Assembly: GCA_037043015.1 (NCBI GenBank)
Contig: CM073323.1
Location: forward strand, 18,981,758-19,045,757
DNA: 64,000 nucleotides
Direction of reading: 5' to 3'
Origin: Bryum argenteum
Taxonomy: Eukaryota; Streptophyta; Bryopsida; Bryales; Bryaceae
Below the pieces are notes generated by a model, which was given only the letters and a program-made list of their open reading frames with translations, made no database searches and had not been told where the DNA came from. The position numbers and the translations under genes were made by a program. Position 1 is the first letter of the stretch. Every line of letters begins with the position of its first letter. Positions 14,619-40,261 of this stretch are shown piece by piece.

Positions 14619-16384
14619 CTCTACCATAGTTGTCTTATTCCATCGAACAAGTATGTAGTGGTAACATAGTTCCCCAAAATCTCCTCCATATCGCAATTGC
14701 TCGGACCGTTGGAATTTGACCATGATTTCATTGCCATGTAATACGAACCCTTTTAGTACACATGTCCCATCACAAATATTGTTACAGGAAAAGAAGAGAT
14801 CGAGGTACAATGTAGTGCCGCGGAGGCCAGCTAAGATAAGAAAGAACATCCTATGCCATGCATTTGGGTTGCAAGCTGAGCACATATCATTGACGTCGGT
14901 TCCACACACACATAAACATACATACATGAAAGAGACTTTCCACACAAGATGTTGTATACCCACAAGTTTGAGAAAATGATAAGCTATGGCACCATCCCCC
15001 GCGTAAACTTACATACGAGTGCAGCATGGATGGAGACGTTCCACACAACATGGTGAATAGCTCCAAAAATTTGCGAGTTCTAATGGTTCGGGGTTGGGCA
15101 GAAAATGAGCAGTGGAGCATCGTCATGAGTGAGGTTGGGAAGAAAGGGGAGGACATGAGCGCGTTTCTTGCAAACCATCAATTGTGCGAGCCAGGGCCGG
15201 GATCCAGCGGAGATTGAATCTTGGATCTTGAAGAGGAGAGGAGAGGGGAGTAGGGTGCCCAGTACTCAAGTAAAAAGAAACACCCCATAAAAACACTAAT
15301 AAAAGCTGTCCATTTCTTGACTTTCCCAATCTTGATGGCACTCACATTCTTTGCTCACAAGCCAGCCAGGGGCTGATTTCACCCAGGGGCAAGGTAAATA
15401 GGTGAATTGCAGCAGCAGCAGGGGCTTGCAAGTACTGTGGGCAAGCACTTAATGACCTAAACCACGAAAGCCTGACACTTCCCACGCGGCTCGTGGGAGC
15501 CTCTGCCCGCGAGAGAGCTCTTCATCATCGAGTCGCAGACTGCAGACGGATTCAGCTCGATCACCTGTGCCAGAGGCGAGCCCTCACTCATGCAGGAGTA
15601 GCTAGCTATGAAGCAGCTAACCTACAGCAGAACCAGCAGTTGGAGCTGCAGCATCACTCATATTATTCTTCGCTTGACCGACGACCAGTTTGAAGCAGGC
15701 ATGGTGATGGCGAGCTTGGTAGGAAGGCGAGAATGCTAGCACGCATTTTGGTTATCATTGCGGACCTCACGTCTTCGAGGAGGGCAATGTAACCCGGACC
15801 GGGCAGGTTCAAGTCTCTGTCTGTCTGTCTGTCTCCCTCCCCCGTAGGTGGCTTTCGAGTGTGCATCCTGGCCCGGTAGTAGTAGTGTTGGTGCATGCTC
15901 GTGATTGACGAACGACTTGGACCAGGTGTGCCTTTTTGTTTGAATGAGTGCACATGAAGATGCTCTTCTAGCGCAGGTACGGCTCGCCTGCTGTAAGTTG
16001 GGGTTGTTAGACTCCCTGCGTGCTGTAGCTCTCTTGGGAGGTTACGTTCAAAGATCGATTACCGCCGGGGCTTTGGGTTTTGTTAGATCACCACATTAGT
16101 TTTGGTGTAGTGATGTGAGCACTGCGAGTTTCATCAAGATAGGCGTGAGTGAATCCTTTTAGAAGGAGTGAGTTAATAAGAGGGAGTGAGTGAATCGGGG
16201 AATTATTTGGTAGTGGCGGTGTCCGCATTGGAATCGCTGGTCGGCAACGTATGACGAGGTGAAGAGAATTCTTCGGGTGCGGTGAGGGAGATTTATTGCA
16301 GTGGGAGTTGCGGTTTAGATTTGTTTGGGTCATGGACGTCAGTGAAGAGAAGGTTTAGAGGCGAAACCTGTTGAGATTGTAGCC
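14619..16384. other. Upstream region of the receptor kinase, no gene recognised
   Basis: Base composition rises in GC from about 14.8 kb. A (TCTG)n run lies at about 15817-15835. Several ORFs of 63-121 codons occur on both strands, but none shows a family motif. The last part, 16.0-16.38 kb, is the likely promoter/5' UTR of the downstream kinase; I could not fix a TATA box. Confidence 0.45.
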
Positions 16385-19300
16385 ATGGGTGGGCTGTGGG
16401 TTTTGATCATGGCGGTGGTGCTGGTGACAATGAGCGGGGTGATCGTGGCCGACGACGCGGCGGGGAGCTCATTGCTGGCGTTCAAGAGGGGGTTGACATG
16501 GGATGGGCCCGATGACCCGCTCGCGACTTGGGTTGCGGGTTCCGATCCATGCCAATGGGATTTCGTCACCTGCGACGCGCTCGAACAAGTGACGGCCCTG
16601 TCGCTGCACCGCCTGGGTCTGCAAGGCCCCATCTCCCCGGCGCTTTGTGCCGTCACCACTTTGCAGCACCTCGATCTCAACAACAACGCCTTCACGGGCT
16701 CGCTGCCGTCGCAGATGGGTGCGCTAGCCTCGCTTCAGTACCTGGACTTGAACTCGAACCAATTGTCCGGCTCGTTACCCCCTTCGTTCTTCACGCTCGG
16801 GGAGCTTCAGTACGTGGACTTGAGCTACAACACGCTCTCGGGTCCGCTCCCGCCTGCGATTGGGGAGCTTCGGAGCGTTATCACGTTCATCTTAGGCCAG
16901 AACTCGTTCACCGGCGCCATCCCCGCGCAAGTCGGAAGCCTCATTGCCCTCAAACGCCTCGACCTCAGCTTCAACTCCTTCCTGGGCACCGTGCCGCCTC
17001 AGCTGGAAGGCTTGGTGAACATGGAGGATTTGAATTTGAGCGCTAACTCGCTGACAGGAGAAGTCCCCGCGCTCCACATGATGACGAATCTGTACCGCGT
17101 CGACGTTAGTGGCAACCAATTCTCCGGGCCAATCTCGCCGCTCCTTGCGTCGTTGCGGAACCTGCAGTCACTGGACTTGAGTAATAACTCCCTCTCGGGC
17201 TCTATCCCTGCGGAGATTTGGGGCATGACGTCGCTCATGGAGCTTTCTCTGGGCGCGAACGGCGGCCTCGTGGGCAGCATCCCGAAGGAGATCGGCAACC
17301 TCGTGAACTTGACGAGCTTGTTTCTGGGGAGTGCCAAGTTCACCGGCCCCATTCCTGAAGAGATCACTCTCTGCACGAAGCTCGTGAAGCTCGACCTCGG
17401 CGGCAACTTCTTCAGTGGCTCCATACCCACCTCCATCGGGAGCTTGAAGCATCTCATAACGCTGAACCTGCCTAGTACGCATCTCACGGGCTCGATTCCG
17501 CCCTCGATCGGGCAGTGCACCAGCCTTCAAGTCCTCGACCTCGCGTTCAACGAGTTGTCGGGTCCGCTTCCCGAAGAACTCGCGTCGCTCCAGAACGTAC
17601 TCTCAATTTCCATCGAAGGTAACAAGCTGTCCGGCTCCCTGGGGCCGTGGATCGGGAGCTTGCAGAACATGTCGACGCTGCTGCTCTCATCGAATGAGTT
17701 CAACGGGACCATCCCTGGGGAGCTAGGGAAGTGCGCGAAGCTCAAAAATCTGGGTCTCGATGATAACCAGCTGACGGGCGCCATCCCCCCGGAGCTTTGT
17801 GACGCCGGCGCGCTGGCAATAGTCACGCTGAACAAGAATATGCTCACGGGCGAGATCACGGACACGTTCCGGCGGTGCTTCACATTGACACAGCTCGATT
17901 TGACGTCCAACGAGCTCTCGGGACCGATTCCCAGCTACCTCGCGGAGCTACCCAACTTGATCATGCTGTCGCTGGGCGCGAATCGGTTTACGGGCACTGT
18001 CCCGGACTCGCTCTGGAGCTCCAAGAGCTTGCTGGAGATTCAGCTGGAGAATAACGAGCTCACTGGCGAGCTGTCGCCCTTGATCGGGAACAGCGTCTGG
18101 CTGCAGTACCTCGTCCTGGACAACAACAGATTTTATGGCCCTATTCCGCCCGAAATCGGCAACTTGACATCGCTCATGATCTTCTCCGCGCCTGGAAATA
18201 TGCTCAATGGCTCCATTCCTGTTGAGCTCTGCAACGCCCTGCAACTCACCACGCTAAATTTGGGTAACAACTCGCTTACTGGTCCCATACCCCGGGAAAT
18301 CGGGAAGCTTGTCAATCTCGAGTGCCTGGTGCTGGCGCACAACAACCTCACGGGCGAAATTCCCATCGAGATTTGCACCGATTTCCAAGTAACCCACTAC
18401 CCTATATCACTACTTTCTTCTGCACTTTCGGTGTTCCGTTCTGTCGTTAAAGCACACAAAACATCTTTCATGTAGAACGCGAACTCAATCCATCGCTCTG
18501 ATATAACTTCAAAGAAACGACATGCAGATGTTGAGAAAGCTACTAAAGATGACTTTCTGATGTTTTTTTGAGTAACTACATGCTTCACGGTCGTCCGAGA
18601 ACTCATCAAATGCTTCACCTTCTGTTTTTCATATTCTGATTCTACGGCGTGATAACCCCTTCGTTGGCGTTTACGTGTGCTCTGGTTCTGAGATGCGATT
18701 ATTATGTTGAATTTTCTTTGACAAGTGTTGCATGTGCTACAGGTGATTGCCATTCCGGTGACGAGCTTCCTGCAGCACCATGGCACCTTGGATTTGTCAT
18801 GGAACCATTTCAGTGGGCCGATACCGCCGCAGCTGGGGGACTGCACAGTGTTGGTGGAGCTCATCTTGGCGGGGAATCACTTCAGAGGGCCATTGCCTCC
18901 GGAGCTTGGCAAGCTGACCAATCTCTCGTCACTGGATGTGTCTTGCAACGAGCTCAACGGCACAATTCCTGCGCAGCTCGGGGACTCCCGGAAGCTGCAG
19001 GGGATCAACTTGGCGAACAACGAGCTCACGGGCTCAATCCCCGCCGAGCTCGGGAACCTCAACAGGCTGGTGAAGCTGAACCTCACGCGCAACCGCCTCT
19101 CGGGCGCCTTGCCGGCAGGCCTGGGCAACTTGACAAGCCTGCAGCACCTGGACGTGAGCGACAATGCCCTGAGCGGCGAGATTCCCAAAGCTATGGCCAA
19201 CATGGTGTCCATCGTCGGGCTCGACATGCACAACAATTTCCTCAATGGCAGCATCGCTGGTCTCTTATCCGAGAGCACTGTGTGGCGCCAGATGCAGTCG

Positions 19301-20812
19301 CTGAACCTTCGCAACAACCAACTCTCGGGCCCCATCCCCCCCCTCGTCGGCAACCTCTCCGGGCTGGCCACCCTCGATCTCAGCCACAACCAATTCTCCG
19401 GCGCCATCCCCGATGACATCGGCAACTTCTACCAGCTCGTCTACTTAGACCTCTCCAACAATGACCTCCAAGGGCCGTTTCCACGCGACGTCTGCGAGCT
19501 CCGGGTCTTACAATTCCTGAACGTCTCCAACAATCACCTGTTCGGGCGCGTTCCGCGGACCGGAAGCTGCCGAGCGCTCACACCCGGGTCGCTCCAGGGG
19601 AACCCAAACCTCTGTGGGGACGTTTTGAATGTCATTTGCACGGCAGCTAATCTTATCGCGAGTACTCACCACATCGGCCGCGCGGCCATTCTCGGCATCG
19701 CCCTCGGGTGCACTTTGTTTATCTTCACTATACTATTTTTTGTTTTGAAATACTGGATTCATCGGAGACAGAATGGGGATCCCAAGGACATGGAGAAGAT
19801 CAAGCTCAACATGGTGTTGGACGCGGACTCATGCGTGACGTCCATGGGGAAGTCGAAAGAGCCGCTGAGTATCAACATCGCGATGTTTGAGCGGCCGCTG
19901 ATGCGGTTGACGCTGGCGGACATTCTCCAAGCGACGAACAACTTCTGCAAAACGAATATCATCGGGGACGGCGGATTCGGCACGGTGTACAAGGCGGTGT
20001 TGAGCGACGGTCGCATCGTGGCGATAAAGAAGCTGGGTGCGTCGACGACGCAAGGCACCCGGGAGTTTCTGGCGGAGATGGAGACGCTGGGCAAAGTGAA
20101 GCACCAGAATTTGGTGCCGTTGCTGGGCTACTGCTCGTTCGGGGAGGAGAAGCTGCTGGTGTACGAGTACATGGTGAACGGCAGCTTGGATCTGTGGCTG
20201 CGCAACCGCGCGGACGCGGTGGAGGTTCTGGACTGGAGCAAGCGGTTTAAGATCGCCACGGGCGCGGCGCGCGGCCTGGCGTTCCTGCACCATGGGTTCA
20301 TCCCCCACATCATCCACCGCGACATCAAAGCCAGTAATGTGCTCCTGGACGAGAACTTCGAGCCTCGCGTCGCGGACTTCGGGCTCGCGAGGCTGATCAG
20401 TGCGTACGAGACCCATGTGAGCACGGACATCGCGGGCACGTTCGGGTACATCCCGCCGGAGTATGGCCACTGCTGGAGGTCCACCACGCGCGGGGATGTC
20501 TACAGCTACGGCGTGATTCTGCTCGAGCTTCTGACGGGCAAGGAGCCGACAGGGAAGGAGTATGATACCATGCACGGAGGCAATCTGGTGGGGTGCGTGC
20601 GCCAGATGATCAAACTGGGCGACGCGCCCGACATCCTGGACCCCGTCATTGCCAATGGCGCCTGGAAGTCCCAGATGCTCCAGGCCCTGCATCTCGCAAA
20701 TCTGTGCACCGCCGAGGACCCCTCCAAGCGCCCCACCATGCAACAAGTCGTGAAAATGCTCAAGGATATGGAAGCCGGCTCCCAGTTCATCCCCACTCTC
20801 GTCACTTTGTAG
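16385..20812 (+). CDS. EMS1-like leucine-rich-repeat receptor kinase (LRR-RLK subfamily X)
   Basis: Two exons, 16385-18388 and 18743-20812, give 1357 residues. The 354-bp GT-AG intron is in phase 0 and falls between DFQ and VIAIP, inside the LRR array. Seen: signal peptide (about residues 1-22), LRR N-cap with DPCQWDFVTC, about 30 plant-type LxxLxLxxNxLxGxIP repeats, a juxtamembrane cysteine pair (near 940-965), one transmembrane helix (about 983-1005), then a kinase domain with GDGGFGTVYK (about 1078), VAIKKL, HRDIKASN (about 1194) and DFG (about 1213). It is an RD kinase with all catalytic residues. The HHGTLDLSWNH and GTFGYIPPEYG stretches resemble Arabidopsis EMS1/EXS, the receptor for a small secreted cysteine-rich ligand acting with SERK co-receptors. 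That ligand pairing is known of the family, not seen here. Start chosen because the hydrophobic leader follows immediately. Confidence 0.93.
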
Positions 20813-26756: not shown

Positions 26757-26766
26757 GTTTTGAAGC
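26757..26766 (+). repeat. 10-bp target-site duplication, left copy
   Basis: GTTTTGAAGC directly outside the left end of the MULE, repeated exactly at 37313-37322. Mutator-like elements duplicate 9-11 bp. Confidence 0.88.
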
Positions 26767-26801
26767 CAACGACGCTAGGAAGTGAGCCTAGAAATGCGAG
26801 C
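26767..26801 (+). repeat. MULE left terminal inverted repeat
   Basis: It pairs with 37278-37312 in reverse complement at the same distance from both ends. The core GTGAGCCTAG is identical, followed by short GAGCTTGYGAGC repeats. A possible start codon of the neighbouring host ORF frame (26818) lies just inside. Confidence 0.85.
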
Positions 26802-26948
26802 TTGCGAGCAATGAGCATGACTTTGTGAGCTTGAGGGAAAAAGTATGTTTTTATAATTATATTTATAGTGAATAAAAATGTATATCATGATTAGATAAAT
26901 TTATTATGTTGACAATAGATAAGTTTATTATTTTAAGTAGAAATATAC

Positions 26949-27103
26949 CCTAAAACCGTGGGTCATGGTTGTACCTATAACCGTGGAAGTAGACAAATTT
27001 TGTAGAAATAAAATAAGATAACTGATTGTAATGATTGTAATAATTTGCTAAATGCTTCATTTTACAGATCCACTCACCTCAAATGTAGTACCTAAAACCG
27101 TGG
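26949..27103 (+). promoter_or_regulatory. Left subterminal motif array CCTAWAACCGTGG (x3)
   Basis: Copies at 26949-26961, 26974-26986 and 27091-27103. Inverted copies near the right end make these the likely transposase- or accessory-protein-binding sites, as subterminal repeats do in MULEs and CACTA elements. Confidence 0.75.
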
Positions 27104-27331
27104 AAATACAAGGATAATGTAGGAGACAAGTGACATACTTGCTATGTCAATATTAAAGAGAATATCACATACTCATACTTATAGAAAAAAATCAAGGAGT
27201 AGATCTCCTCAACATGTAATAATAAAATCTAAGCATTTAGTTGCTAAGTATATAAGAGGTAAGGCTATGACTCTAAGGCTATAGCTGCAATACAAGAAAT
27301 AAGGCTACAATTTCAAGCCTATGAAATAAAT

Positions 27332-30300
27332 CTAAATATTCTCTATGATGATTTGGGCGCGTAGAAGGAGTTGCTTCACTTCGTTGAAACTCAAGCTTAG
27401 GTAGTGGATGAATGTGTCATCCTCACAATTCATCTTGCAGAAATAGCGAAAAATGTAATAAATATGTTTACAATTAACATATTGCCCACGTTTTCCAATC
27501 GATGACACAGCCATGTTTTGGAAATCTGGACACGTACACTCTGGGAAGTGGCTGATAGAGATTCGATAAACCTTTTTGTTTGGATCTGATCCAGATTCCA
27601 ACGAGATTATTGCACCAAGACCTGGAAATGGAAGAAGTGTCACACTTGTGATGGTACCTTTGATGTTGCGTGCGCTTTCCCACTTATTCCGGTGTTCAGC
27701 AGTTGGAGCGCGTCCGTTGCGGCGAATGGACTTACTATTCCGAGTTGTTGGAAAAATGTCCGGATTTACCGGGCTTGGATGATTAAAGACATGTGCGTCA
27801 ACACAGTTGGCCAATGAGAACATACGTCGAGGTGACATCTCTTTATGATCTTGAAGTGTAAACCCTGCCTCTTGTAGAAGAAGAGTTTCATGGCGTGTCA
27901 AGTGAGTGCCACTCAAAACAGGCCATACTTCCGGAACATGAGGCCAATCTAGAACCCAAGGTTGTTTACTACCCTTTACACAACGCTCAATATCGTCTGG
28001 ACAGAACCAAAAATCGGTAACAATCTCCTTGTTTCCACCGTACTGAGTTTTTCTACCTCTGTATGTTGGTGCAGGGGTTCCCTTTGAACCCTTTGCAATA
28101 CGAGCACTACACTTAATATTTGTCGATGCTTGTTGGGCATGACATTTACAGCTCGATTTGTGAGAGATCCTAGCTATATGCCACTGTGACACATCACAAT
28201 CAGACTCTAATGCTGTCGTCACATGAAGATTATCTTCGTGTGTTGTAAGAAGTGTAGACCCTTCTCTCAATTCTCTATGAGATGCTGCAGACCTAGTTTG
28301 TATCCGGGGTTGTGAAAAGTTTACCTTGTCAGGTCTATGTGAGTCTCCATCATCACCGGGCGGAAGATCTAGTTTCCTTTTTGTGCTACCAAAGATTTCT
28401 TCCCCCTCCAGATGAGGAACCCGAGTATTGGCAACCTCAGCACCCGGAAGTTGGCCAACTGCTTCAGCAATTTTTTTTGGGTCACCAGAACGTGTTGCTG
28501 CACGTAACTTTAGTTCCTGCTTTGATGGACCCATATCTGACAGATTGCCCTTCTTCTGGTACGCCCTGTAGTTGGTCATTTGCATTACTGCTCGGATCAT
28601 ATCGTCGCAAGTGGCCACATAGAGGTCATTGCCACGATTCCCTGACTGTTGCAACCACTTGTTGTGAACAGTTTCTGACAAGTTACAGGATGGCATGTCT
28701 GCCAATTCTTCAAGGCTACGTCCCTGCATCAACACATACACAAAAATTTAACATAAATATTGCATATCACTGTATATATATGCAATTATGCAACCATATG
28801 AATATCCAAACAAAAGATGAAGATTGTACCATTTGCATAAAGCCTCCCCATTGACGGTAACGAAAGTGCCAGAATGCTAGCCAAAGATTTAAATCTCGGA
28901 TAGATTCTTCAGATGAAGCTCCTGATGAAAGCCACCACGCCCGAATAGCTAGGTACTTTGACTCTGCATCGTCAAGTGTCTTCGAATCCTTATATTGCTT
29001 ACAAAGGCGGTTGTGTTGCTCCTGCATGTTGGGCTTGATGTACTTCTGAGTATGCCGAATAAGCGACGTGGTCCAATGCAAAAGGCATGTTCGCTCTCTG
29101 CCCTCCATAGGTATCTTTGGATCGCCACTCCCGTAAATAATGCGGACTGCGTTCCAATTAGCTTGTGCACTGTCGGCCATGAATCCCTTGAAATTGGTTT
29201 TCTCCACACCGTGACGTTGCATAACTTCATTGAGCTCCCTCCACATGATACATTGAACCTTAGTGTCTTCCGATTGCATGTCACAAACAAAGAATCGTCA
29301 ACTTTTGCAATATTTTGTGTCATACACATGACACGCCATTGTAGTCCAGTCCTGAACACGTTTGACATGGTCAAACATGAGCCAAGCGTTCTGAAGATCA
29401 CCTCCTGGTTGCATGCGTTCAACAAGGTTGACACCACTGCCCGGACCATCTTCCAACATTTTGAATAAGTAAACCTTGTCCTTCCCTTGGCCCGGAAACA
29501 CACTACTTTGTATGTACTCAAGTGTACTATACCTCTTCATTGCAAGAATGTTATCAAATGCACTTTGCCCTTGCCCCGCCTCTATTTCAAATGAAATCGT
29601 GTTTCTCAAATTTGGGAACTCGAGGTACTCAAACTTATCCAACACATTCTCCAAGTCTTTCCCTCGAAGCATCTCTTTTGCTCCAGATCCACTGTGAATG
29701 AGGTACTTGTCTAAGAACTCTTTACTTGCAGCCATAGCTATCGCTGAATTCTTCGCAGTTGGTGTTTTTGCGACTTCTTTAGCAATTAGACTGGATATTG
29801 TGCTCACAGACTCACGACAAACACCGGTAGACACCGGATGGGTATGCACCCCTAAATGGATGCACGCCCTCGTCATATCGTTTGTACTAAGGACGTAGTA
29901 TATACGACCGTCACAGAAACTAAGACATGTTGGAGGAACTTTGCAAACTTTGCAAACTAAAGTAGATGTAAGAGGACGCGTTGACCCAGCTTTAAAAGGA
30001 GTGTTGGTTTGGCCAGACCACTCTGTTTCATTCTTCTTTCCTGCTCTTGATAAGAAATCGCATGCATCATTCTCACAGACCAAATGACCGACACAAGAAG
30101 ACTTTCTAAAAGTTAGTCCTTCTTTGTTGTGAATATTAGTTGTTATAGTTCGACACCATGCATGACCATCATATCGCTTATCCATACCATCCATTTGATT
30201 CCTTGAACCAGGTATGGAAGAATGACTCGGAGGCAACTCAAAGATGACATCTCCATTGTATACTGGAGGGAGAAATTGGACTTTATGATACGTAATCTTG

Positions 30301-30851
30301 TCATAGTCAATAGACGCAAGTTTAGTTCTAGAACCTGGAAGAGAAGAGAGGCGTCTCAAGCATTGCATAATACTCGGGGGTTCTCGAGTATTATGATGAC
30401 ATGGAGGCCGAGAAATGTTAGAATAACCTGAAGACTGGCCTAGAGTATGAGCAGAATTAGACTGATCACTAACAGAACGTATAGTTGTAGGTAAAGGGAC
30501 ATCACGAGAATGAACTACATCGTTAGGAATTTGACCTTGTGATGAGTCACTTGACAATTCCACTGCATCACCATGACACTCTTGTTTCACTCTTGATACA
30601 CTTAGACCAAACGCCCTGTATCTTCCGCTTGGAAGAAGCCAGTATTGTTCATCTTCGTCATGACAACTCAGTTGCAAAATAGTTCTATCTACAACACTAG
30701 ATTCAGAGAACACCTCTTCTTCAATAAAAATTGAAGAGAGTTGTAATCCGAAGCGCACGTGTAGGATTTGGGCAGACACTCTAGCACGACCTTGTTCTCC
30801 AACTTGGAAAACAAGGGGGATTGGGTGACCAGATGCTCGAACAAAAGCCAT
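27332..30851 (-). CDS. MULE-like transposase with WRKY-GCM1-type and SWIM zinc motifs, one in-frame stop
   Basis: Exon 1 is 30851-28830 and exon 2 is 28723-27332, with a 106-bp GT-AG intron. Seen in order: a novel N-terminal region; a WRKY-GCM1-type zinc cluster (SCVGHLVCENDAC ... LVCKVCKV ... HLGVHTHPV); an RNase-H-like core with first Asp in YDTKY, second in FMADSAQANW, and a downstream acidic helix (SSEESIRDLNLW); a Lys/Arg-rich spacer; and a C-terminal SWIM finger (CTCPDF ... NCKH), the usual MULE C-terminal module. A TGA at 29298-29300, between YCKS and RFFVCD, interrupts an otherwise continuous frame of about 1,140 codons. It is probably a CGA-to-TGA decay mutation next to the catalytic core. 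No exact family name is claimed. Confidence 0.85.
28724..28829 (-). other. Intron of the MULE transposase
   Basis: The donor ATG|GTACAATC and acceptor GATGCAG|GGACGTAGC join GGFMQM to GRSLEEL in frame. The 106-bp length is normal for this window. Confidence 0.8.
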
Positions 30852-31471
30852 ATTGTAAACCGAACAGATGTTGTAAACAAGAAGCGGAAAGAGAGCATAA
30901 CATAATCTTAAGAAATAACTATCAACAATGGAAGTTAAATAGGAAAAATATCGGAATTATTGCATGCACTTTAAAAAATTGAATGGTATTTTATTAGATT
31001 CTAACAAAAATAGAAAGCGGCACAAACCGAACTTTAGGTGAAGTATATGTTATTAATAATGGTTGTTTATGATTAAATAAAGTAAGGAGAATTAGAAGTA
31101 GGTATGCGTATGTGTGGTAACATGTGAAATGTCAGCAATCATATTATAAACAGGGAATACAAGTATATAACGCCGAAAATATATTTTTGGTAAGACGCCA
31201 ATATGATTTTAGAGTAGCCGTCAAGTTACTGACAATATCTAGATATAGAATTAATTTTTTGAAATTCAAATTATGTAGCCGCATGTTGTTCCGCGGAAAT
31301 TCCGTACTCGTTTTCTGACAATTAACGCGGATGACAATATCTGAGTACCGGTGTTCAATTGTGAATGTGGTAGAATGTATTGGAGCTTGGAGTTTCACTC
31401 ATTCTCAAATGCTTCGTGCAGGCACCACTTAGCGCAGCCTTAGCCGTCGTTGTGAAAGCTATTGGGGACAC
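30852..31471. promoter_or_regulatory. Divergent promoter region of the MULE
   Basis: 620 bp of AT-rich DNA between the divergent transposase (-) and the small ORF (+). No clear TATA or repeated motif was fixed. The subterminal CCTAWAACCGTGG motif is absent here. Confidence 0.5.
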
Positions 31472-32198
31472 ATGAAAGAGGGTAGTCATATTGTTAATCA
31501 ATCGACGGAAGCAACACGGAAGCGGAAGAAACGAAGAGGTGGCACTAGTTTTAGTGGCTCTAAGGAGAGGAGGCGTAGGGAGTTAAAGAAGAAGGCAGTT
31601 TTGAGTGAGATTTGTGGGGAGACTATAAGAACGGTATGTGAGATTGACGACAAGAGGGTTAGATCAAGTAGAAATTTTAAGAGTGGTACACTAGATATCG
31701 CGGTTGTTGAGGAAAGTGAAGAGGAGGAGAAGGGAGTGCGATTTAAAAGATTGTCAACAATGAGTTCGGAAATTGAACGTGCGCCACAGAGCTTTGTAGA
31801 AGAGAGTGATTCTGATGATGAGACGGCAGGCGGGTCCATAGCTACGGTAAATAGTCTTCTTATTCAGTAAATTGCATGTCATATTGACAATGTATTCTTA
31901 GATCTTGTGTACATGAAGTGAATCATTAAGTGAAGTGATTGTTTTCAAAGAAATGGTAGCTTTATGAAAAATATTAAAGTTTTTGTGTATCTTGTACTGC
32001 ACCTTTACTTTTGTAAAGGGAGGTGGCGGAATTATATGCGCCCAAGAGTACGACATGGAGGAGTCGGATAATGACGAGGTGAATAAGGATGATCAGATCA
32101 AGACTATCGAAGCAACAACAATGAAGTTATTGCCTTCCAAGAAAAGAGCTCATCTGTCACACGCAAAGGTAGAAGAGACTTTCTTTATTAAGGGTTAA
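31472..32198 (+). CDS. Small highly charged nuclear-type ORF of the MULE
   Basis: Exon 1, 31472 to about 31848, starts at ATG (MKEGSHIVNQ) and ends at ACG|GTAAAT. Exon 2 starts after AAAG| at about 32020 (GGGGIICAQEYD) and ends at TAA 32198, unless it splices again at AAAG|GTAGAAG near 32166. The product of about 185 residues has a strongly basic N-terminus (RKRKKRRGG, KERRRRELKKK) and acidic patches (EESEEEE, EESDSDDE, MEESDNDEVNKDD). No known fold is visible. It could be an accessory gene, or 5' exons of the downstream ParB-methyltransferase gene. I favour a separate gene because AT-rich, poly(A)-signal-like sequence and a TTTAGGG box follow before the next ATG. Confidence 0.45.
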
Positions 32199-32589
32199 AT
32201 AAATAATTGAAGTTTTCTAATAATTTAAAGCGATGATACTTGAAGTTGGCTTAGAGTATGGAAAAGTATGATACATTTTATTCATGGATTGAGATTTTAT
32301 TTCATTGAAATGTAATATCACTATTGTTTAGTTTGTAAGTACTGCTTGCATTGGAAAGTCAAAGCAAATTAATATCTCAGTATTCTACAAAATGCTCATG
32401 TGTTATATTCTTGTATTCCAATGAATTAAAAAAATTAAATAAAAAGAATTGGCTCAATTAGAAGATATTCCATTAATGCACTTACGTACTCATCCACTTT
32501 CCTAAGCACCTCCCAAACCCCATCCACCAATCATACTTTCTCAATAAACCTAATTTTCATATTAGATCTAGGATTGGCGGCTTGGCGGC

Positions 32590-32618
32590 TTTAGGGTTTA
32601 GGAATTTAGGGTTTAGGG
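32590..32618 (+). promoter_or_regulatory. Telo-box-like TTTAGGG cluster
   Basis: TTTAGGG occurs three times and TTTAGG once in 29 bp, about 105 bp upstream of the ATG at 32724. Telo-boxes are known in the promoters or 5' UTRs of plant growth-related genes. Here it suggests that the methyltransferase-like gene has its own promoter. Confidence 0.5.
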
Positions 32619-32723
32619 ATCAAAGGTGAGGTGAAGCTTGTTCACTTTTTGGTTATCTTGTTTTGAGTTTTGAGTTTTGAGTTTTGAGATTTGAGTGTGT
32701 GCTTATTGAAGGAGAGGAAAGAG

Positions 32724-35700
32724 ATGGAAGGTGAAGATAGCGTGGTTATGGCAAGCGTGGTTATTACACCGGATGAGACTCAAGAGGAGCATGAAGTGGA
32801 GAGAGAAGAAGCTGCAACACCCAAGGTTAGTAGTGAACAAATAGCTACTATATGAACAAATTTCTAGTACAAGATGTGAGCTTTTTAAGAATTGTGAGTC
32901 GCGAATCTGGAGCCTTTCGTTGACGAAAGCCTCCTTCAATGTGTGCTGGTCGGGGCGGGACACTGCCAGCCGGCGGGGCCGTGCGTGGACCGGGGGGGGG
33001 TACTGGATAGGCGTGGGTCGAGAAGGGGCTGGCTGGGCGTGGGTCGGGAGGGGCTGGCGTGGGCGGGGGGGCTAGGCTGTGGGCCAAGGGGCGCACTTGG
33101 CTTGGATGTGAGGGAGGAGGTCGGCTGGCTGGTCATCACGCCGCGCCTGGAGGCTGAGCATCTTCTTTGCCATGGCATCTTCTTTGCCGCTGGGCTGCTA
33201 GGGCCAGACTTGCCAGGGCCTCACAGCCAGCCCCCCTCCAGTCACTTTTTTTTTTTTAAAATTTTTTTTTGGTTTATTTTGGCTTTGTTTTTTTTCTGTT
33301 TCTCTTCATTTTTTCTTTACTGTATTTCTTTTTGTAATTTCTTTTTGTATTTGCATTTTTAGGCATTTTTAGGCATACATACACATGTTTTTTTTTTTTT
33401 TCTTTCTTCTGATGTGATATAAATTCTTCCATTTAGTTGTCAAATTTTGTAACATCAACATTGTTTCATTCTTATGCATATGTGCTTTCGTTGACGAAAT
33501 GCAATACTTTCTGTGTGTTTTGTGGCATTATAATTTGAGGTAAATGAATGTGTAAGTCATTGGGTTGGTTGAATTACATGTTGTAGAGCCTTTCGTTAAC
33601 GAAAGGCTATCTATGTGAGGTTTGTTTAAATTTGGTTTTTGATGAGTTATTTTTTTATGGAATTTTATTTTACATGTCGTAGAGCCTTTCGTTGACGAAA
33701 GCCTCTTCTCATGATTTGATCATTCTAATTTTTGGTACTAATTATCCTTATGTTATGGTGTTTTGTTATGTTTTGTTAGGATGGAGGTCCAATCCTTCAT
33801 ATACCCGAGTGCCTGCATACGTAAAAAATGACCCCGATGTGAGTGAGATCGCCCTCCGCAATATACGAGAGGTGGATTCGGTCAATGTAATCAATCGGTT
33901 GCGAATCAAGCCTTCATCTAAATCACGGTTTGTGATTCCATTATGTCGTTTATGGTGTCTTCCTCTTGTACGCCCTATCGGTTAAAGTTAACGTGCGGCG
34001 CTTGGAGAACGATTTCGTTATGGGATATCGAGATGGAGATCGAGTCCTCTATGTATCCATATACAATGGTGGAGATGCTGAGTTGACGGTTACAGAAGAA
34101 ATTTGTGCATCTTGGAGTGCCCATTGGAAAGCAGCAAACGATGCATTTGAAAACTTTCTAGCTGCAGATGAAGATCTCAAGGTTTTCAGCAACAAAATGT
34201 TTTTTGTGTATGAGGGAAACCATCGACTGTCTGCATGGTTTCGCCACATCAACAAACATCATGGGGGCGATCCTGCATGGCATATAAGTGTTGATTGCAT
34301 TGTTCTAGATGCACGGAAACAAAGTGGCATTCTTCTTAAAAAAGTTGTGTTCGTCCCATTCAGAAAGACGTTTCTGGAGGTCTTTTTAGCCCTGCTGAAT
34401 TTGTTGATCGGTGGCGTATTATTTTGTGGGACAAAGCTTTTTTGCCATTGATTGCAAAGTTTGCGAAGTCTACAGTTCTTACGACATTTAAGGGTGGAGA
34501 CATGGCTATCAATCGTGTGATGTACCGGTATGATATGGCATCACCTTAAGAAACAATTCATTTTTCTTTTTCTTTACTTTTGAAATTCTAAGTGTTTCAT
34601 GTCAATATCTTGTCAGGTATTTTTATCGTGAAATCGTGACGAAGAATGCTCTTTCAGCAGAATTTGTCCCACCCATTCTTCATACTTTCTTGGATTCTAC
34701 ATCCGAAGAATTCATGTATACACCTTTTCAATCTCGGAAATTTCCTGTTTCTCATCTACGAGCAGGAGGGTGGTATCTTGATTGTGTGGACGGATTTATT
34801 CCTCCTGGCGAGGAAAGCCTTGTTCAATCTCTTGACGAAATTCCGGATCTTCATTTGGAAAACTTGAACACTATTCTATGTGATGTGGAGAATGAAGATT
34901 TGGAGGAGCAACCTAAACGAAAACGGTCCAAGAAGACAACCAACACATCTCTTGCCGTTGCAACTCGCTCTACAACAAAGGCAACCTCACGAGACTCTCC
35001 AGCAAGTGCTACGGTAGGATGCTCAACAGCTGGTCAATTAGCCATTGTTTCAGTACCTTTACAGCCTACTTTAGGCTCTGAGGTATCCAAGCGCAAAGTG
35101 ACTGTACCCACTACAACTGTTACTTCTTCTAGTACAATTCGTTCTTCCACTCTTCTTGAAAATGCAGACTTGGAGGAACTTATTGAGTTCAAGCATATGA
35201 ACGGTGTTCATGATCCTATTTACGAGCGCATCCAGAAATTTATATCGGATGTGAGTTACTTATCACCTCTTTGTACTTTATGTATTGCAATCTACATTAT
35301 TTAGAAATTGTGGCTAATAATTGTTGTCTTTTTAGGTTCGTACATCGCGACCTCATGGTACATCAAACATGACCGCAAATCATTCCGGACTTGACCTCAT
35401 TATAGCGGATGTACCAGAAAACCTGCCAGTGCCACTTGTCTCAAGCACTACGGTACCTGAATGGAACAAGCGCTCAGAAGGTTACTTTGAGTACTTATTT
35501 TCATTTGCTGCTGCAAACTTGCATGACGATGCAATGTTGCTTGTAGTTCATCCAAATGATCCTGCTTTGTTACTTGATTTGCGAAATTGGGCTTATACTT
35601 TTGAGTTTGAGCTGCTACGCGATTGGTGGGGTCTAAATAACCTCCATCTTTTTTCTTCGGTTGATCGTTCACAAAAGGTGCAAAATTCATTCCATAAACT

Positions 35701-36656
35701 TCTATTATTCTTATGTCATTTTACTTCAATTTTTGTATTTCTAATACTTACAATTTTTTGTTTTGTAGACTTTGCGATTTTTCATCAAGGTTTATACTCG
35801 CACTGGTTCCAAAGCCTCTATTCAAGAAGCAAGTTCTTGGTCGGACTTGGGATTTTCTCTCGAAAATGATGGCTACCTTCAGAACTTCACAAATTCAAAG
35901 TGTCAACTTATGAATGATACAATTCCGTGGAGAGGGGCCCGCGAGAAGCATCCTAAGTTCATGCAGATTCTTATTGAGTCTCTTACAAAAGAAGGAGACA
36001 TTGTTCTTGACTGGCAAACCAATACAGGTACTGTTTTTTTTTCCCAACTAATAATTTTTTATATGTTGATTTTATTGTTTTTGTTTTAGCACTTTAATTT
36101 ATATCTTGATGTTCATTTTATACAGGTGCCTCAGTTTTAGCGTGTCGTGACACTGGTCGTCATATCATTGCTCTGGAGAAAGACATTGAAATCTTCAACG
36201 GCCTTCTCAAGGGATTTGAAAAACAAGAAATCCTCCCCTCTATTTCTATGCCAACACGCCCTTCTTTTCAGGAACCTCCTCCACAAAAGAAGCAGAAGCG
36301 TATTGCTCTTTGTGCGTAAGTTTGATAATCAATGTTAATGATGTTAACATATTATTTATATGATACATTTTTATTCTTGAACATTAAACTTACACAATAT
36401 CTTGTATTTTTGCAGAGGTTCACCTTTAAGAAAGAAACGGATACTTACAAAGGACATGTTTATTAGTCCTCCAAAAGATTTTTACCTACCTTCTTACGCT
36501 GAGAATCTTGCACAAGAATTTGTAAACGCACCTTCTCCAGTTCTTTCCTATCGTAGACGTTTCAATCCTATTGTTGAGACGTTTATTGATTTAGAGGTGG
36601 AAGAAGATAATAGGAGGTTTTCAGGAAGTGAAGGTAGTTCTAGTCCAAGTATTTGA
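32724..36656 (+). CDS. ParB-like domain plus beta-class DNA-methyltransferase-like protein of the MULE (frame interrupted)
   Basis: Exons: 32724-32825, 33780-33927 (frame unsure), about 33950-34527, 34617-35250, 35336-35677, 35769-36027, 36126-36315 and 36416-36656. The last five splice in frame with GT-AG borders. First module: VNVRRLENDFVMGYRDGD and FVYEGNHRLSAWFRHI ... VDCIVLDA resemble the ParB/sulfiredoxin-type fold (GxHR). Second module: LDLIIADVPEN (position of motif IV, normally DPPY), a strand with AMLLVVHP, then HPKFMQILIESLTKEGDIVLDWQTNTGASVL split over an intron (motif I, normally DPFxGSG) and GRHIIALEKD. The order IV before I is that of beta-class N4C/N6A methyltransferases, and ParB fusions with such enzymes are common in phages. 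DVPE and NTG deviate from the catalytic and SAM-binding consensus. The tail is basic (KKQKR, RKKR). Frame breaks near 33.82, 33.94 and 34.34 kb suggest decay. Confidence 0.65.
32914..33701. promoter_or_regulatory. Four dispersed palindromic sites CTTTCGTTRACGAAAG
   Basis: Sites at 32914-32929, 33485-33500 (last base T), 33590-33605 and 33686-33701. Three share the flank 'gagC' and two the flank 'GCCTC'. The third is a perfect palindrome extended to 22 bp (33587-33608). Size and symmetry resemble parS or a dimeric-repressor operator. They are inside the gene whose product has a ParB-like domain. Confidence 0.7.
32941..33240 (+). repeat. GC-rich low-complexity insert in the intron
   Basis: About 300 bp of G-rich sequence with repeated 'ggcgtgggtcgggaggggctgg'-like units, preceded by one palindrome copy and followed by a T-rich tract. 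Its composition is unlike anything else in the element, so it may be a separate insertion. The 139-codon ORF across it is not believed. Confidence 0.5.
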
Positions 36657-37064
36657 AATGTTTTGGATTTGATTTTGTGATTAGAGAAGCAGGCTACATT
36701 CTCAATCACTCTCATGTTTAGTTTGGTTTTTTGGTATTTAATATTAATTATTCATACTATTAGGTTGATTTGTTATTTTCTTCTGAGTTTAGTAGATCCG
36801 TATCAAATATTTTTCTCCTTTGTATTGGTCTTATTTTTATGAAATATTTTCTTTAACATTGTCATTCACTTGTTAGTTCATGAATTGATTTGCACTTAAA
36901 TATTTATGTTTTTCTTGCATAGAGTGCTGTCAGCCCTAATTTAATTGGCCTTGTCTAATACAACAACAAAATTTTATAATCTTTTTTGAAACCATAATAC
37001 ATAACTTAATCATATGGTTGTATTATTTGTTATTGTAATAGATGAGTACTAAATAGTAACCAAA

Positions 37065-37218
37065 CCACGGTCTTAGGACACTTTTTTTTCTTTCATGCAC
37101 AAAATTTCTAACATGATTTCCACGGATTTAGGGTACCCATATAAAAATATTCAACTTGTATTTCAAAAAAATTAGTTACAACTTATAAACTTTATGATTT
37201 GCCACCCACGGTTATAGG
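37065..37218 (-). promoter_or_regulatory. Right subterminal motif array (x3, inverted)
   Basis: CCACGGTCTTAGG at 37065-37077, CCACGGATTTAGG at 37120-37132 and CCACGGTTATAGG at 37206-37218 are the reverse complements of the left array, with one or two variable positions. Confidence 0.72.
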
Positions 37219-37277
37219 TCCAATCCACCTTTTATTTCCTAGTAAATATTTGGGTTCATATGCTCGCAAGCTCACAA

Positions 37278-37312
37278 GCTCACACTCCTAGGCTCACCTA
37301 CTAGCAACCCTG
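37278..37312 (-). repeat. MULE right terminal inverted repeat
   Basis: Reverse complement matches 26767-26801 at about 26 of 35 positions without gaps. Tandem 'gctcgcaagctcacaagctcac' repeats continue inward. Confidence 0.85.
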
Positions 37313-37322
37313 GTTTTGAAGC
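37313..37322 (+). repeat. 10-bp target-site duplication, right copy
   Basis: GTTTTGAAGC, identical to 26757-26766. Confidence 0.88.
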
Positions 37323-39388: not shown

Positions 39389-39656
39389 TTAACCCCTAAC
39401 TTTCCTTAAAACCTGAAACGGGTTTTGGAGGTTTCCACAAGAGAAAAACTCAACCAACTTTGACCATTATAATCTCACAAATGAAGAAGAATGAACAGTT
39501 CAAATTTGGTATGTGAGAAGAATGTACAACGAACTTTGAGATCTTACAGTTGAATATTCTAAATATTGCTTAGATTGGAATCTTTTGAGCTTAATCCAGA
39601 GGAAGGTCAAATTTTGTGACTTAGACCGTTTTGCAACAAGGAAATTTAGGGGTTAA
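39389..39656 (+). repeat. Family A TTAA MITE, copy A7
   Basis: TTAACCCCTAACTTTCC to GAAATTTAGGGGTTAA, 268 bp, TTAA at both ends. Confidence 0.9.
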
Positions 39657-39993
39657 GTCAGTTTCTGAAATGCTTGCAAGTTATAATCGTAAGAGTCAAA
39701 ACTTCCTACTTTCGGATTTGAGCATCATCTTAGAAGTCAACAAGTTTGTAGAAGTATGATGGACTTTAAAGGACAAAATTGTACTTCCCAAGTCTTGGAA
39801 AGGTCATAAAGCTGCTTAATGTAGATGCTACCCCTAAGTATGTTTAAAGTGTTTGGTACCCTGATGCTGCAACTGCAAGTTAAGTTATAGCAGGAGAAGC
39901 TTTGTGTTGATTTTCCTTGAAGAAGAAGGGAGTGCAAAAGGTCATTTTTGAAGTTGATTTGTTTCATATTTGTTAGAGCAGCTAAGATTTTAA

Positions 39994-40261
39994 TTAACCC
40001 CTGAATTTCCTCGTTGCAAAACGGTTTAAGTCACAAATTTTGACCTTTACTTTAGATTAAGCTCAAAAATCTCAATCTGAGCATTATTTAAAAGATTCAA
40101 CCGTAAGATCTCAAAGTTCACTTGACCTTCTTCTCACATACCAATTTTGAACCGTTCATTTTTTCTCATTTGTGAGATTATAATGGTCAAACTTGGCTGA
40201 GTTTTTCTCCTACGGGAACCTCCAGATCCCGTTTTGGGTGTTGAGGAAAATTAGGGGTTAA
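39994..40261 (-). repeat. Family A TTAA MITE, copy A8
   Basis: Inverted relative to A7, TTAA at both ends, 268 bp. The 337 bp between A7 and A8 hold no recognised gene. Confidence 0.88.

Follow-up and report, generated by a model that had tools for sequence, protein, structure and literature searches.

A resident second gene with a ParB-like segment and an altered methyltransferase-like domain in an abundant Mutator-like transposon family of the moss Bryum argenteum

Can a transposon of a land plant carry, as a gene of its own, a ParB-like segment joined to a domain resembling beta-class DNA methyltransferases, and would the product of such a gene methylate DNA? The question arises from a 64,000-nucleotide stretch of the Bryum argenteum genome (assembly GCA_037043015.1, contig CM073323.1; C3:18981758-19045757), called here the window, whose own coordinates are used throughout. 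An earlier reading of its sequence, referred to below as the original prediction, had placed such a gene inside a plant Mutator-like element (MULE). We analysed the window against the whole genome (258.8 Mb in 25 contigs). The sequence itself points to a land plant or close relative: one locus of the genome has two stretches matching the LEAFY DNA-binding domain (PF17538), with no match in 14 control genomes (a weak contrast, since those named are prokaryotes), and the window contains a receptor kinase gene described below. The gene and the transposase gene beside it form a resident pair in a very abundant element family. Certain subfamilies keep the second gene under strong purifying selection, whereas in the window's it is decaying. 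Ordinary methylation by its product is doubtful, judging from its altered motifs.

Structure and class of the element

The transposon and its parts are as follows.

26757-26766: left target-site duplication, GTTTTGAAGC, 10 bp, identical to 37313-37322
26767-37312: whole transposon, 10,546 bp, with the same end bases in other copies
26767-26818, plus strand: left terminal inverted repeat, imperfect, about 50 bp
26947-27103, plus strand: three subterminal CCTA(A/T)AACCGTGG-like 15-mers of the left end, starting at 26947, 26972 and 27089
27332-30956, minus strand: transposase gene, with a DDE-like core at 28767-29297 and upstream, and a C-terminal CxC...CxH SWIM-like finger within 27332-28747
37065-37220, minus strand: three subterminal copies of the CCTA(A/T)AACCGTGG-like 15-mer at the right end, facing inward
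37260-37312, minus strand: right terminal inverted repeat, imperfect, aligning with the left end
37313-37322: right target-site duplication, GTTTTGAAGC, 10 bp, identical to the left one

Local alignment of the two inverted ends scores 51, whereas 1,000 shuffles never exceeded 30. Copies cA and cJ are flanked by 10-bp duplications of their own, CCCTCCTAAC and AGCTTTAAAA respectively, so that a duplication of this length is found in all three copies in which both ends were read (window, cA and cJ). Eighteen places in the genome, the window's own among them, match the first 223 bp of the element wholly or partly.

Target-site duplications of MULEs are reported to range from 8 to 11 bp (PMC6446971), a range that includes the 10 bp found here, and the terminal inverted repeats are present, if short and imperfect. 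The transposase shows patterns like those of a DDE core with C-x2-H and of a C-terminal SWIM finger; the Pfam SWIM model gives a weak match in one locus, L051 (E 0.14), and none in a close copy. The window transposase carries a stop near its first aspartate, and copy cI reads through the same spot. When the transposase core was searched against Pfam, no family was matched at E<=10, the MULE model (PF10551) included. That model finds 52 places in the genome; the 150 transposase places listed below have none of them within 2 kb, and the 150 listed ParB-like places none within 20 kb. Because of its 10-bp duplication, inverted ends, and DDE and SWIM-like patterns, the element is Mutator-like by structure only; the original assignment to MULEs holds for that structure, but the Pfam MULE model misses the transposase.

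Six of the seven CCGTGG sites in the window element lie within the subterminal 15-mers, less than 340 bp from the ends, three at each end and all directed inward; about 1.9 such sites would be expected in an element of this composition. Five of the six 15-mers are retained in copy cJ, and likewise five of six in cA. These repeats may be binding sites for a protein, candidates for the binder being the transposase, the second protein or neither.

The second gene and its state in the window copy

The second gene spans 32724-36656 on the plus strand, diverging from the minus-strand transposase gene, and is divided by GT/AG splice sites into the following parts.

32724-32825, plus strand: exon 1 of the ParB/methyltransferase-like gene, its start and splice donor read from the sequence
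33780-34338, plus strand: ParB-like exon with the GNHR motif, frame broken in the window copy
34338-34339, plus strand: deletion point, about 1 kb absent relative to other copies (last part of the ParB-like exon, and additional exons)
34339-34527, plus strand: remnant of the exon 3' of the deletion, middle region
34617-35250, plus strand: exon for the middle region and linker
35336-35677, plus strand: methyltransferase-like exon with the altered motif IV (IIADVPENL)
35769-36027, plus strand: methyltransferase-like exon with the motif X region (PWRGAREKHP) and motif I (LDWQTNTG)
36126-36315, plus strand: methyltransferase-like exon past motif I (ASVLAC...IIALEKD)
36416-36656, plus strand: last exon, with stop

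The GNHR segment encoded in the window, FFVYEGNHRLSAW, is followed by a methyltransferase-like region in the order IV, X, I. Exon reading thus bears out the predicted layout, a GNHR segment and then a methyltransferase-like region with motif IV before motif I. Five in-frame introns had also been noted. Five are indeed located 3' of the ParB-like exon (34528-34616, 35251-35335, 35678-35768, 36028-36125 and 36316-36415), but the frame is not open throughout, there is in addition a long first intron (32826-33779), and a composite exon model (not a transcript), which takes its exons from several copies and totals about 1,060 amino acids, has ten introns.

Damage to the window copy was assessed against ten close copies (cA-cJ). 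At 34338/34339, seven of them (cA, cC, cD, cE, cF, cH and cI) carry an extra 0.96-1.05 kb and cB carries about 7.2 kb, while cG and cJ lack the left side; the window junction is found in none of the eight copies that have both sides. As read in cH, the stretch absent from the window contains the last part of the ParB-like exon together with additional exons. A slip in a run of A at 34340 was rejected as the sole explanation because other copies hold about 1 kb more at this point. The ParB-like exon of the window also shifts frame relative to its counterpart in L053, which stays open for 202 codons. As the cause of the frame change, an intron at about 33928-33986 was rejected because the L053 exon reads through there. 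The L053 locus (L020/L022) is broken in its motif IV exon. Since none of the ten close copies was seen to be open across all exons, the window's subfamily may hold no intact copy.

Three minor features belong to this part of the element. The plus strand between the two main genes (31433-32198) has open frames, 145 and 76 codons long and with many charged residues, which may belong to a third small gene of the element or be 5' exons of the second gene. Intron 1 contains, at 32914-33701, a repeated palindrome, CTTTCGTT(G/A)ACGAAAG, and a G+C-rich simple stretch, and it varies in length and alignment among copies, which suggests a nested insertion. Lastly, L051 (reverse 1308-1598) and L052 (reverse 551-841) have upstream segments that are alike (YM..WR......RLEA...AR..PRRS) and are not seen in exon 1 of the window; they may represent a further N-terminal exon.

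Abundance of the family and pairing of its two genes

A first look across the genome gave 1,000-1,900 candidates for each of the ParB-like, methyltransferase-like and transposase exon types; these are unconfirmed copies, most of which went unscored. Scoring of the best candidates gave, for the methyltransferase-like part, 207 matches from the best 131 of 1,830 and, with a second query, 259 matches from the best 150 of 1,920; for the ParB-like exon, 150 matches from the best 150 of 1,037, 139 of them free of stops in the matched stretch; and for the transposase core, 150 matches from the best 150 of 1,013.

At least 45 of the 150 listed ParB-like places have a listed transposase within 20 kb; random placement, tried 500 times, yields a mean of 5.1 such links and never more than 10. 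In 39 of the 45 linked cases listed, the transposase lies upstream on the opposite strand, that is, head to head; in the other six it is upstream on the same strand (one) or downstream (five). From the matches listed for the second methyltransferase-like query we chose by eye 111 motif IV exon places. At least 28 of these have a ParB-like place within 8 kb (2.2 by random placement), in all 28 upstream and on the same strand, and the distance between the two exons is 2.0-2.9 kb in 27 of the 28 linked cases listed. A listed transposase lies within 20 kb of at least 21 of the 111, upstream on the opposite strand in 16 of the 21; random placement gives 4.1 on average and at most 9. Because these counts are far above random placement, the gene pair is a resident feature of a very abundant element family. 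The predicted location of the gene within a transposon is thus established in the window, by inverted ends and a 10-bp duplication, and the head-to-head arrangement extends to most linked cases.

In locus L051 (C6:55200-61700) the transposase match is on the same strand as the ParB-like exon, 3.4 kb upstream of it, a departure from the head-to-head rule.

Selection on the second gene

Ratios of nonsynonymous to synonymous substitution rates (dN/dS) were computed by the method of Nei and Gojobori. Some pairs of copies have diverged almost entirely at synonymous sites: for L143 and L146 the motif IV exon gives dN/dS 0.02 (dN 0.005, dS 0.249), and for L146 and L151 the motif I exon gives 0.03. 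The ParB-like exon gives 0.06 for L062/L064 and 0.12 for L060/L064, values that reflect past or shared constraint and not genes intact today, because L060, L062 and L064 have stops or frame breaks elsewhere in the gene. Medians over pairs with dS 0.05-1.5 are 0.32 for the ParB-like exon (41 pairs), 0.49 for the motif IV exon (52) and 0.40 for the motif I exon (82), in sets that include many pairs from the decaying subfamily of the window and broken copies. Thus some subfamilies show strong purifying selection on the second gene, and the window's shows its decay.

These ratios bear on the explanation that the gene is a captured passenger without function, in the manner of a Pack-MULE. The broken window copy and the failure to find any of the ten close copies open across all exons are what such a passenger would look like. 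The gene, however, is shared by many divergent subfamilies and usually keeps one orientation relative to the transposase, 139 of the 150 listed ParB-like exon matches are stop-free, and dN/dS falls as low as 0.02. The selection test largely contradicts this explanation, and we rejected functionless passenger DNA as very improbable.

The methyltransferase-like domain

Homology of the C-terminal domain to beta-class N6/N4 DNA methyltransferases, as originally predicted, is well supported by sequence comparison. Phage methyltransferase families of PHROG match it (best 2.6e-8), and a three-member profile finds DpnA (7e-5) and CcrM (0.04) in PDB. An hhalign comparison with six viral enzymes, covering 90 columns with motif I among them, reaches 97.1% (E 7e-11); this match is not fully independent, because the six had been selected as sequence matches to the same domain half. 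The motif IV segment of the second gene is N-terminal to the region matched by hhalign, an order also found in beta-class methyltransferases.

Searches of phage and viral sequence with the methyltransferase part matched methyltransferases in part only, in 98 of 50,697 phage records at E<=0.01. A search of IMG/VR with this part found two loci, of which the one examined, L067, is an ordinary methyltransferase, and a scan of GTDB genomes and IMG/VR with a larger methyltransferase alignment found no match.

The canonical motif IV is (D/N/S)PP(Y/F/W), and the six viral enzymes read D(L/P)PY. At the corresponding position the window gene reads DVPE. The canonical motif is absent from all 15 divergent members read (the window, L051, L052 and 12 fetched loci, with the window's close copies excluded), all of which have D(V/A)P(E/D/K)NL instead. 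ADVPKNP occurs in cH and at the L020/L022 locus, two broken copies close to that of the window. Relative to the canonical form, the first proline and the aromatic residue are lost, and the aspartate and the second proline retained, in 15 of 15. Motif I is D(W/F)S-x-STG in most divergent members, while L051 has FYWSVSTG and the window LDWQTNTG; the TG of the motif is kept and its loop has other residues for the first glycines. In canonical enzymes the aromatic residue of motif IV stacks on the flipped base, and METTL14 is an example of a non-catalytic relative with an altered motif.

Ordinary N6-adenine or N4-cytosine catalysis by this domain is therefore doubtful, because motif IV is altered in all 15 divergent members. 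For the same reason the role first suggested for the protein, the marking of DNA, was an unsafe inference. One could still propose that the protein is active as an N6-adenine or N4-cytosine DNA methyltransferase, and that its ParB-like part brings it to the element, whose own DNA it would mark or protect. The order of the motifs and the homology to phage N6/N4 enzymes would fit such an enzyme, as would the strong conservation and the retention of the motif IV aspartate, its second proline and the TG of motif I. Loss of the first proline and aromatic residue throughout the 15 divergent members, together with replacement of the first glycines in the motif I loop, argues against it, and we hold an active enzyme of this kind to be possible and on the unlikely side.

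The ParB-like segment

Six divergent members share, with small variations, the blocks RIPLCRL...VRP...KLENEF..GYR.GD...YVS, then about 45 residues, YVYEGNHRL.AW and HISVDCI.LD. This order of conserved blocks is the one expected of ParB/Srx. EGNHR is present in all six aligned members, and the decayed L052, which lies outside the alignment, reads RGNHR. By inference from sequence, GNHR would be the P motif of ParB/Srx with its conserved arginine. The family phrog_1033 (PHROG 1033), of ParB-like partition proteins, matches two of the six members, one at E 0.0013 (residues 108-160) and one at E 0.0065 (residues 108-147). The segment is probably ParB/Srx. A match by hhalign to viral ParB-like proteins (87.8%) was discarded as evidence because the comparison proteins had been chosen by their GNHR motif.

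A possible accessory protein of the element

The interpretation that we favor, at about even confidence, is that the second gene encodes an accessory protein acting on the element's own DNA, in which a ParB-like part is joined to a methyltransferase-like module that would not be an ordinary N6-adenine or N4-cytosine enzyme. This resident gene of a large Mutator-like family, divergent from the transposase gene, has a predicted product of about 1,060 amino acids, in which a ParB-like segment and a middle region precede a beta-class methyltransferase-like domain with altered yet strongly conserved motifs IV and I. The ParB-like part might provide sequence-dependent or nucleotide-dependent loading onto DNA of the element, conceivably where the subterminal repeats face inward. 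The methyltransferase-like part might act as a module that binds S-adenosylmethionine (SAM) or DNA and masks or remodels the DNA of the element. The outcome could be an aid to transposition or resistance to silencing by the host. The element with its gene pair and prevailing orientation, the homology to methyltransferases, the altered motif and the selection seen in some subfamilies are observations; we infer the ParB fold, the DNA binding, the loss of catalysis and the purpose alike.

A number of results weigh against this interpretation. Those from the copies themselves are the breaks elsewhere in L060, L062 and L064, the absence of an open frame across all exons in any of the ten close copies, and the six of 45 linked pairs that are not head to head. 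For the C-terminal domain, the Pfam N6_N4_Mtase model scores the window gene at 23.5 bits, below its cut-off of 26.7 bits, and is seen in just three of nine members (best E 3.9e-5), in an alignment where six of the nine rows are without the last exon; moreover, an altered motif is no proof of lost activity. For the N-terminal segment, Pfam ParB_N matches none of the six divergent members and has no match genome-wide, while the same model finds matches in 10 of 14 control genomes (prokaryotes where named). No credible PDB match was found for the segment (best E 0.85), the ParB-like part had no match in the tblastn search of phages or in the viral search, and masking of GNHR reduces the hhalign ParB score to 0.2%. 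Beyond the GNHR motif, then, sequence speaks weakly for ParB. The profile searches by which the original prediction was to be checked thus upheld the methyltransferase homology through PHROG, PDB and hhalign, but not through Pfam, and its ParB identity stands on GNHR and on the PHROG matches, but not on the Pfam model.

The same results raise the alternative that the methyltransferase-like domain is genuine and GNHR a chance motif in an unrelated domain, as the lack of a Pfam ParB match and the failure of the masked comparison would lead one to expect. The PHROG match to ParB-like partition proteins, however, extends past the motif in both members, and a published algal gene, discussed below, has the same stated pair of domains, the same strand relation and a similar size. 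A chance motif therefore seems to us rather unlikely.

A further alternative is a protein mainly for transposition, serving in end recognition or in control of strand or copy state, with no role in silencing. Pairing and orientation with the transposase gene and the subterminal repeats at both ends agree with such a function, but present data do not distinguish it from an anti-silencing role. We consider transposition as the main purpose to be unlikely, and prefer the accessory protein in the broader form given above.

Relation to known systems

VANDAL elements carry VANC. Among the extra genes and motifs of other MULEs, OTU, SET, PMD, DUF and MutB are listed in the portion seen of PMC6446971, whose text on MULEs has no occurrence of "methyltransferase" or of "ParB". 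As far as that portion goes, VANDAL and other MULEs are like the present element in having an extra and sometimes antisense gene with a possible role against silencing, and differ from it in the type of gene.

A closer parallel comes from algae. According to PMC12477816, the Ectocarpus element Sola1-1 (Sola1-1_Ec32) encodes a protein of 1104 amino acids with ParB-like and N4/N6 methyltransferase domains on the strand opposite the transposase, and marking of the transposon's own DNA by the ParB/methyltransferase protein was suggested. Subject to the caveat on ParB, the Bryum gene is similar in having both domains in one gene within the element and opposite in strand to the transposase, and in its product size (about 1,060 amino acids). 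The comparison, made by description alone, is between a brown alga with a Sola1 transposase in a 21.5-kb element and a plant with a Mutator-like element. That paper also cites green- and red-algal transposons with similar proteins (Iyer, Abhiman and Aravind 2011; Petroll et al., on Bostrychia), and the red-algal work of Petroll et al. for giant EnSpm elements with accessory genes; these proteins are described here as that paper cites them.

Outside of eukaryotic transposons, the ParB-CTPase fold is described as fused to N6_N4 methyltransferase in phages and prophages, with variable NTP binding by the fold (PMC12704722); these share the two fused domain types, but are prokaryotic. Retrotransposons of dinoflagellates and charophytes encode cytosine methyltransferases (PMC5890265), and so share with the Bryum element a mobile DNA methyltransferase gene, but theirs are of C5 type, reported to be host-derived, and in retrotransposons.

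The original prediction knew of no plant Mutator-like element with such a gene. No report from a land plant or a Mutator-like element was found among the matches listed, with most subscription journals and bioRxiv outside the coverage, but the algal transposons of PMC12477816 are precedents. Since similar genes have been reported from algal transposons, the Bryum gene extends a known oddity and does not found one. New here are the land-plant host, a Mutator-like element that the Pfam MULE model misses, and a conserved altered motif IV. A kind of gene that, as far as the literature search shows, had been algal is now seen in a plant, where it accompanies another transposase and is present in very many copies. 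The conserved alteration of a catalytic motif gives a direct handle on whether such proteins methylate DNA at all, on which the published idea of self-modifying transposons depends, and mosses would be tractable hosts for that question. More tentatively, one kind of accessory gene may have come to accompany unrelated transposases (Sola1, Mutator-like and possibly EnSpm) across algae and land plants, represented here by an abundant, selected pseudo-methyltransferase, or an enzyme of new chemistry, that would load onto element DNA to defeat silencing.

Other features of the window

Upstream of the transposon, 16346-20812 contains a leucine-rich repeat (LRR) receptor kinase gene, the kinase part of which is matched at E 7.7e-47. 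On the other side, at 39389-40261, is an inverted repeat with arms of 197 nucleotides that are 84% complementary and 479 nucleotides apart, with a nested 54-nucleotide pair; it looks like a foldback element.

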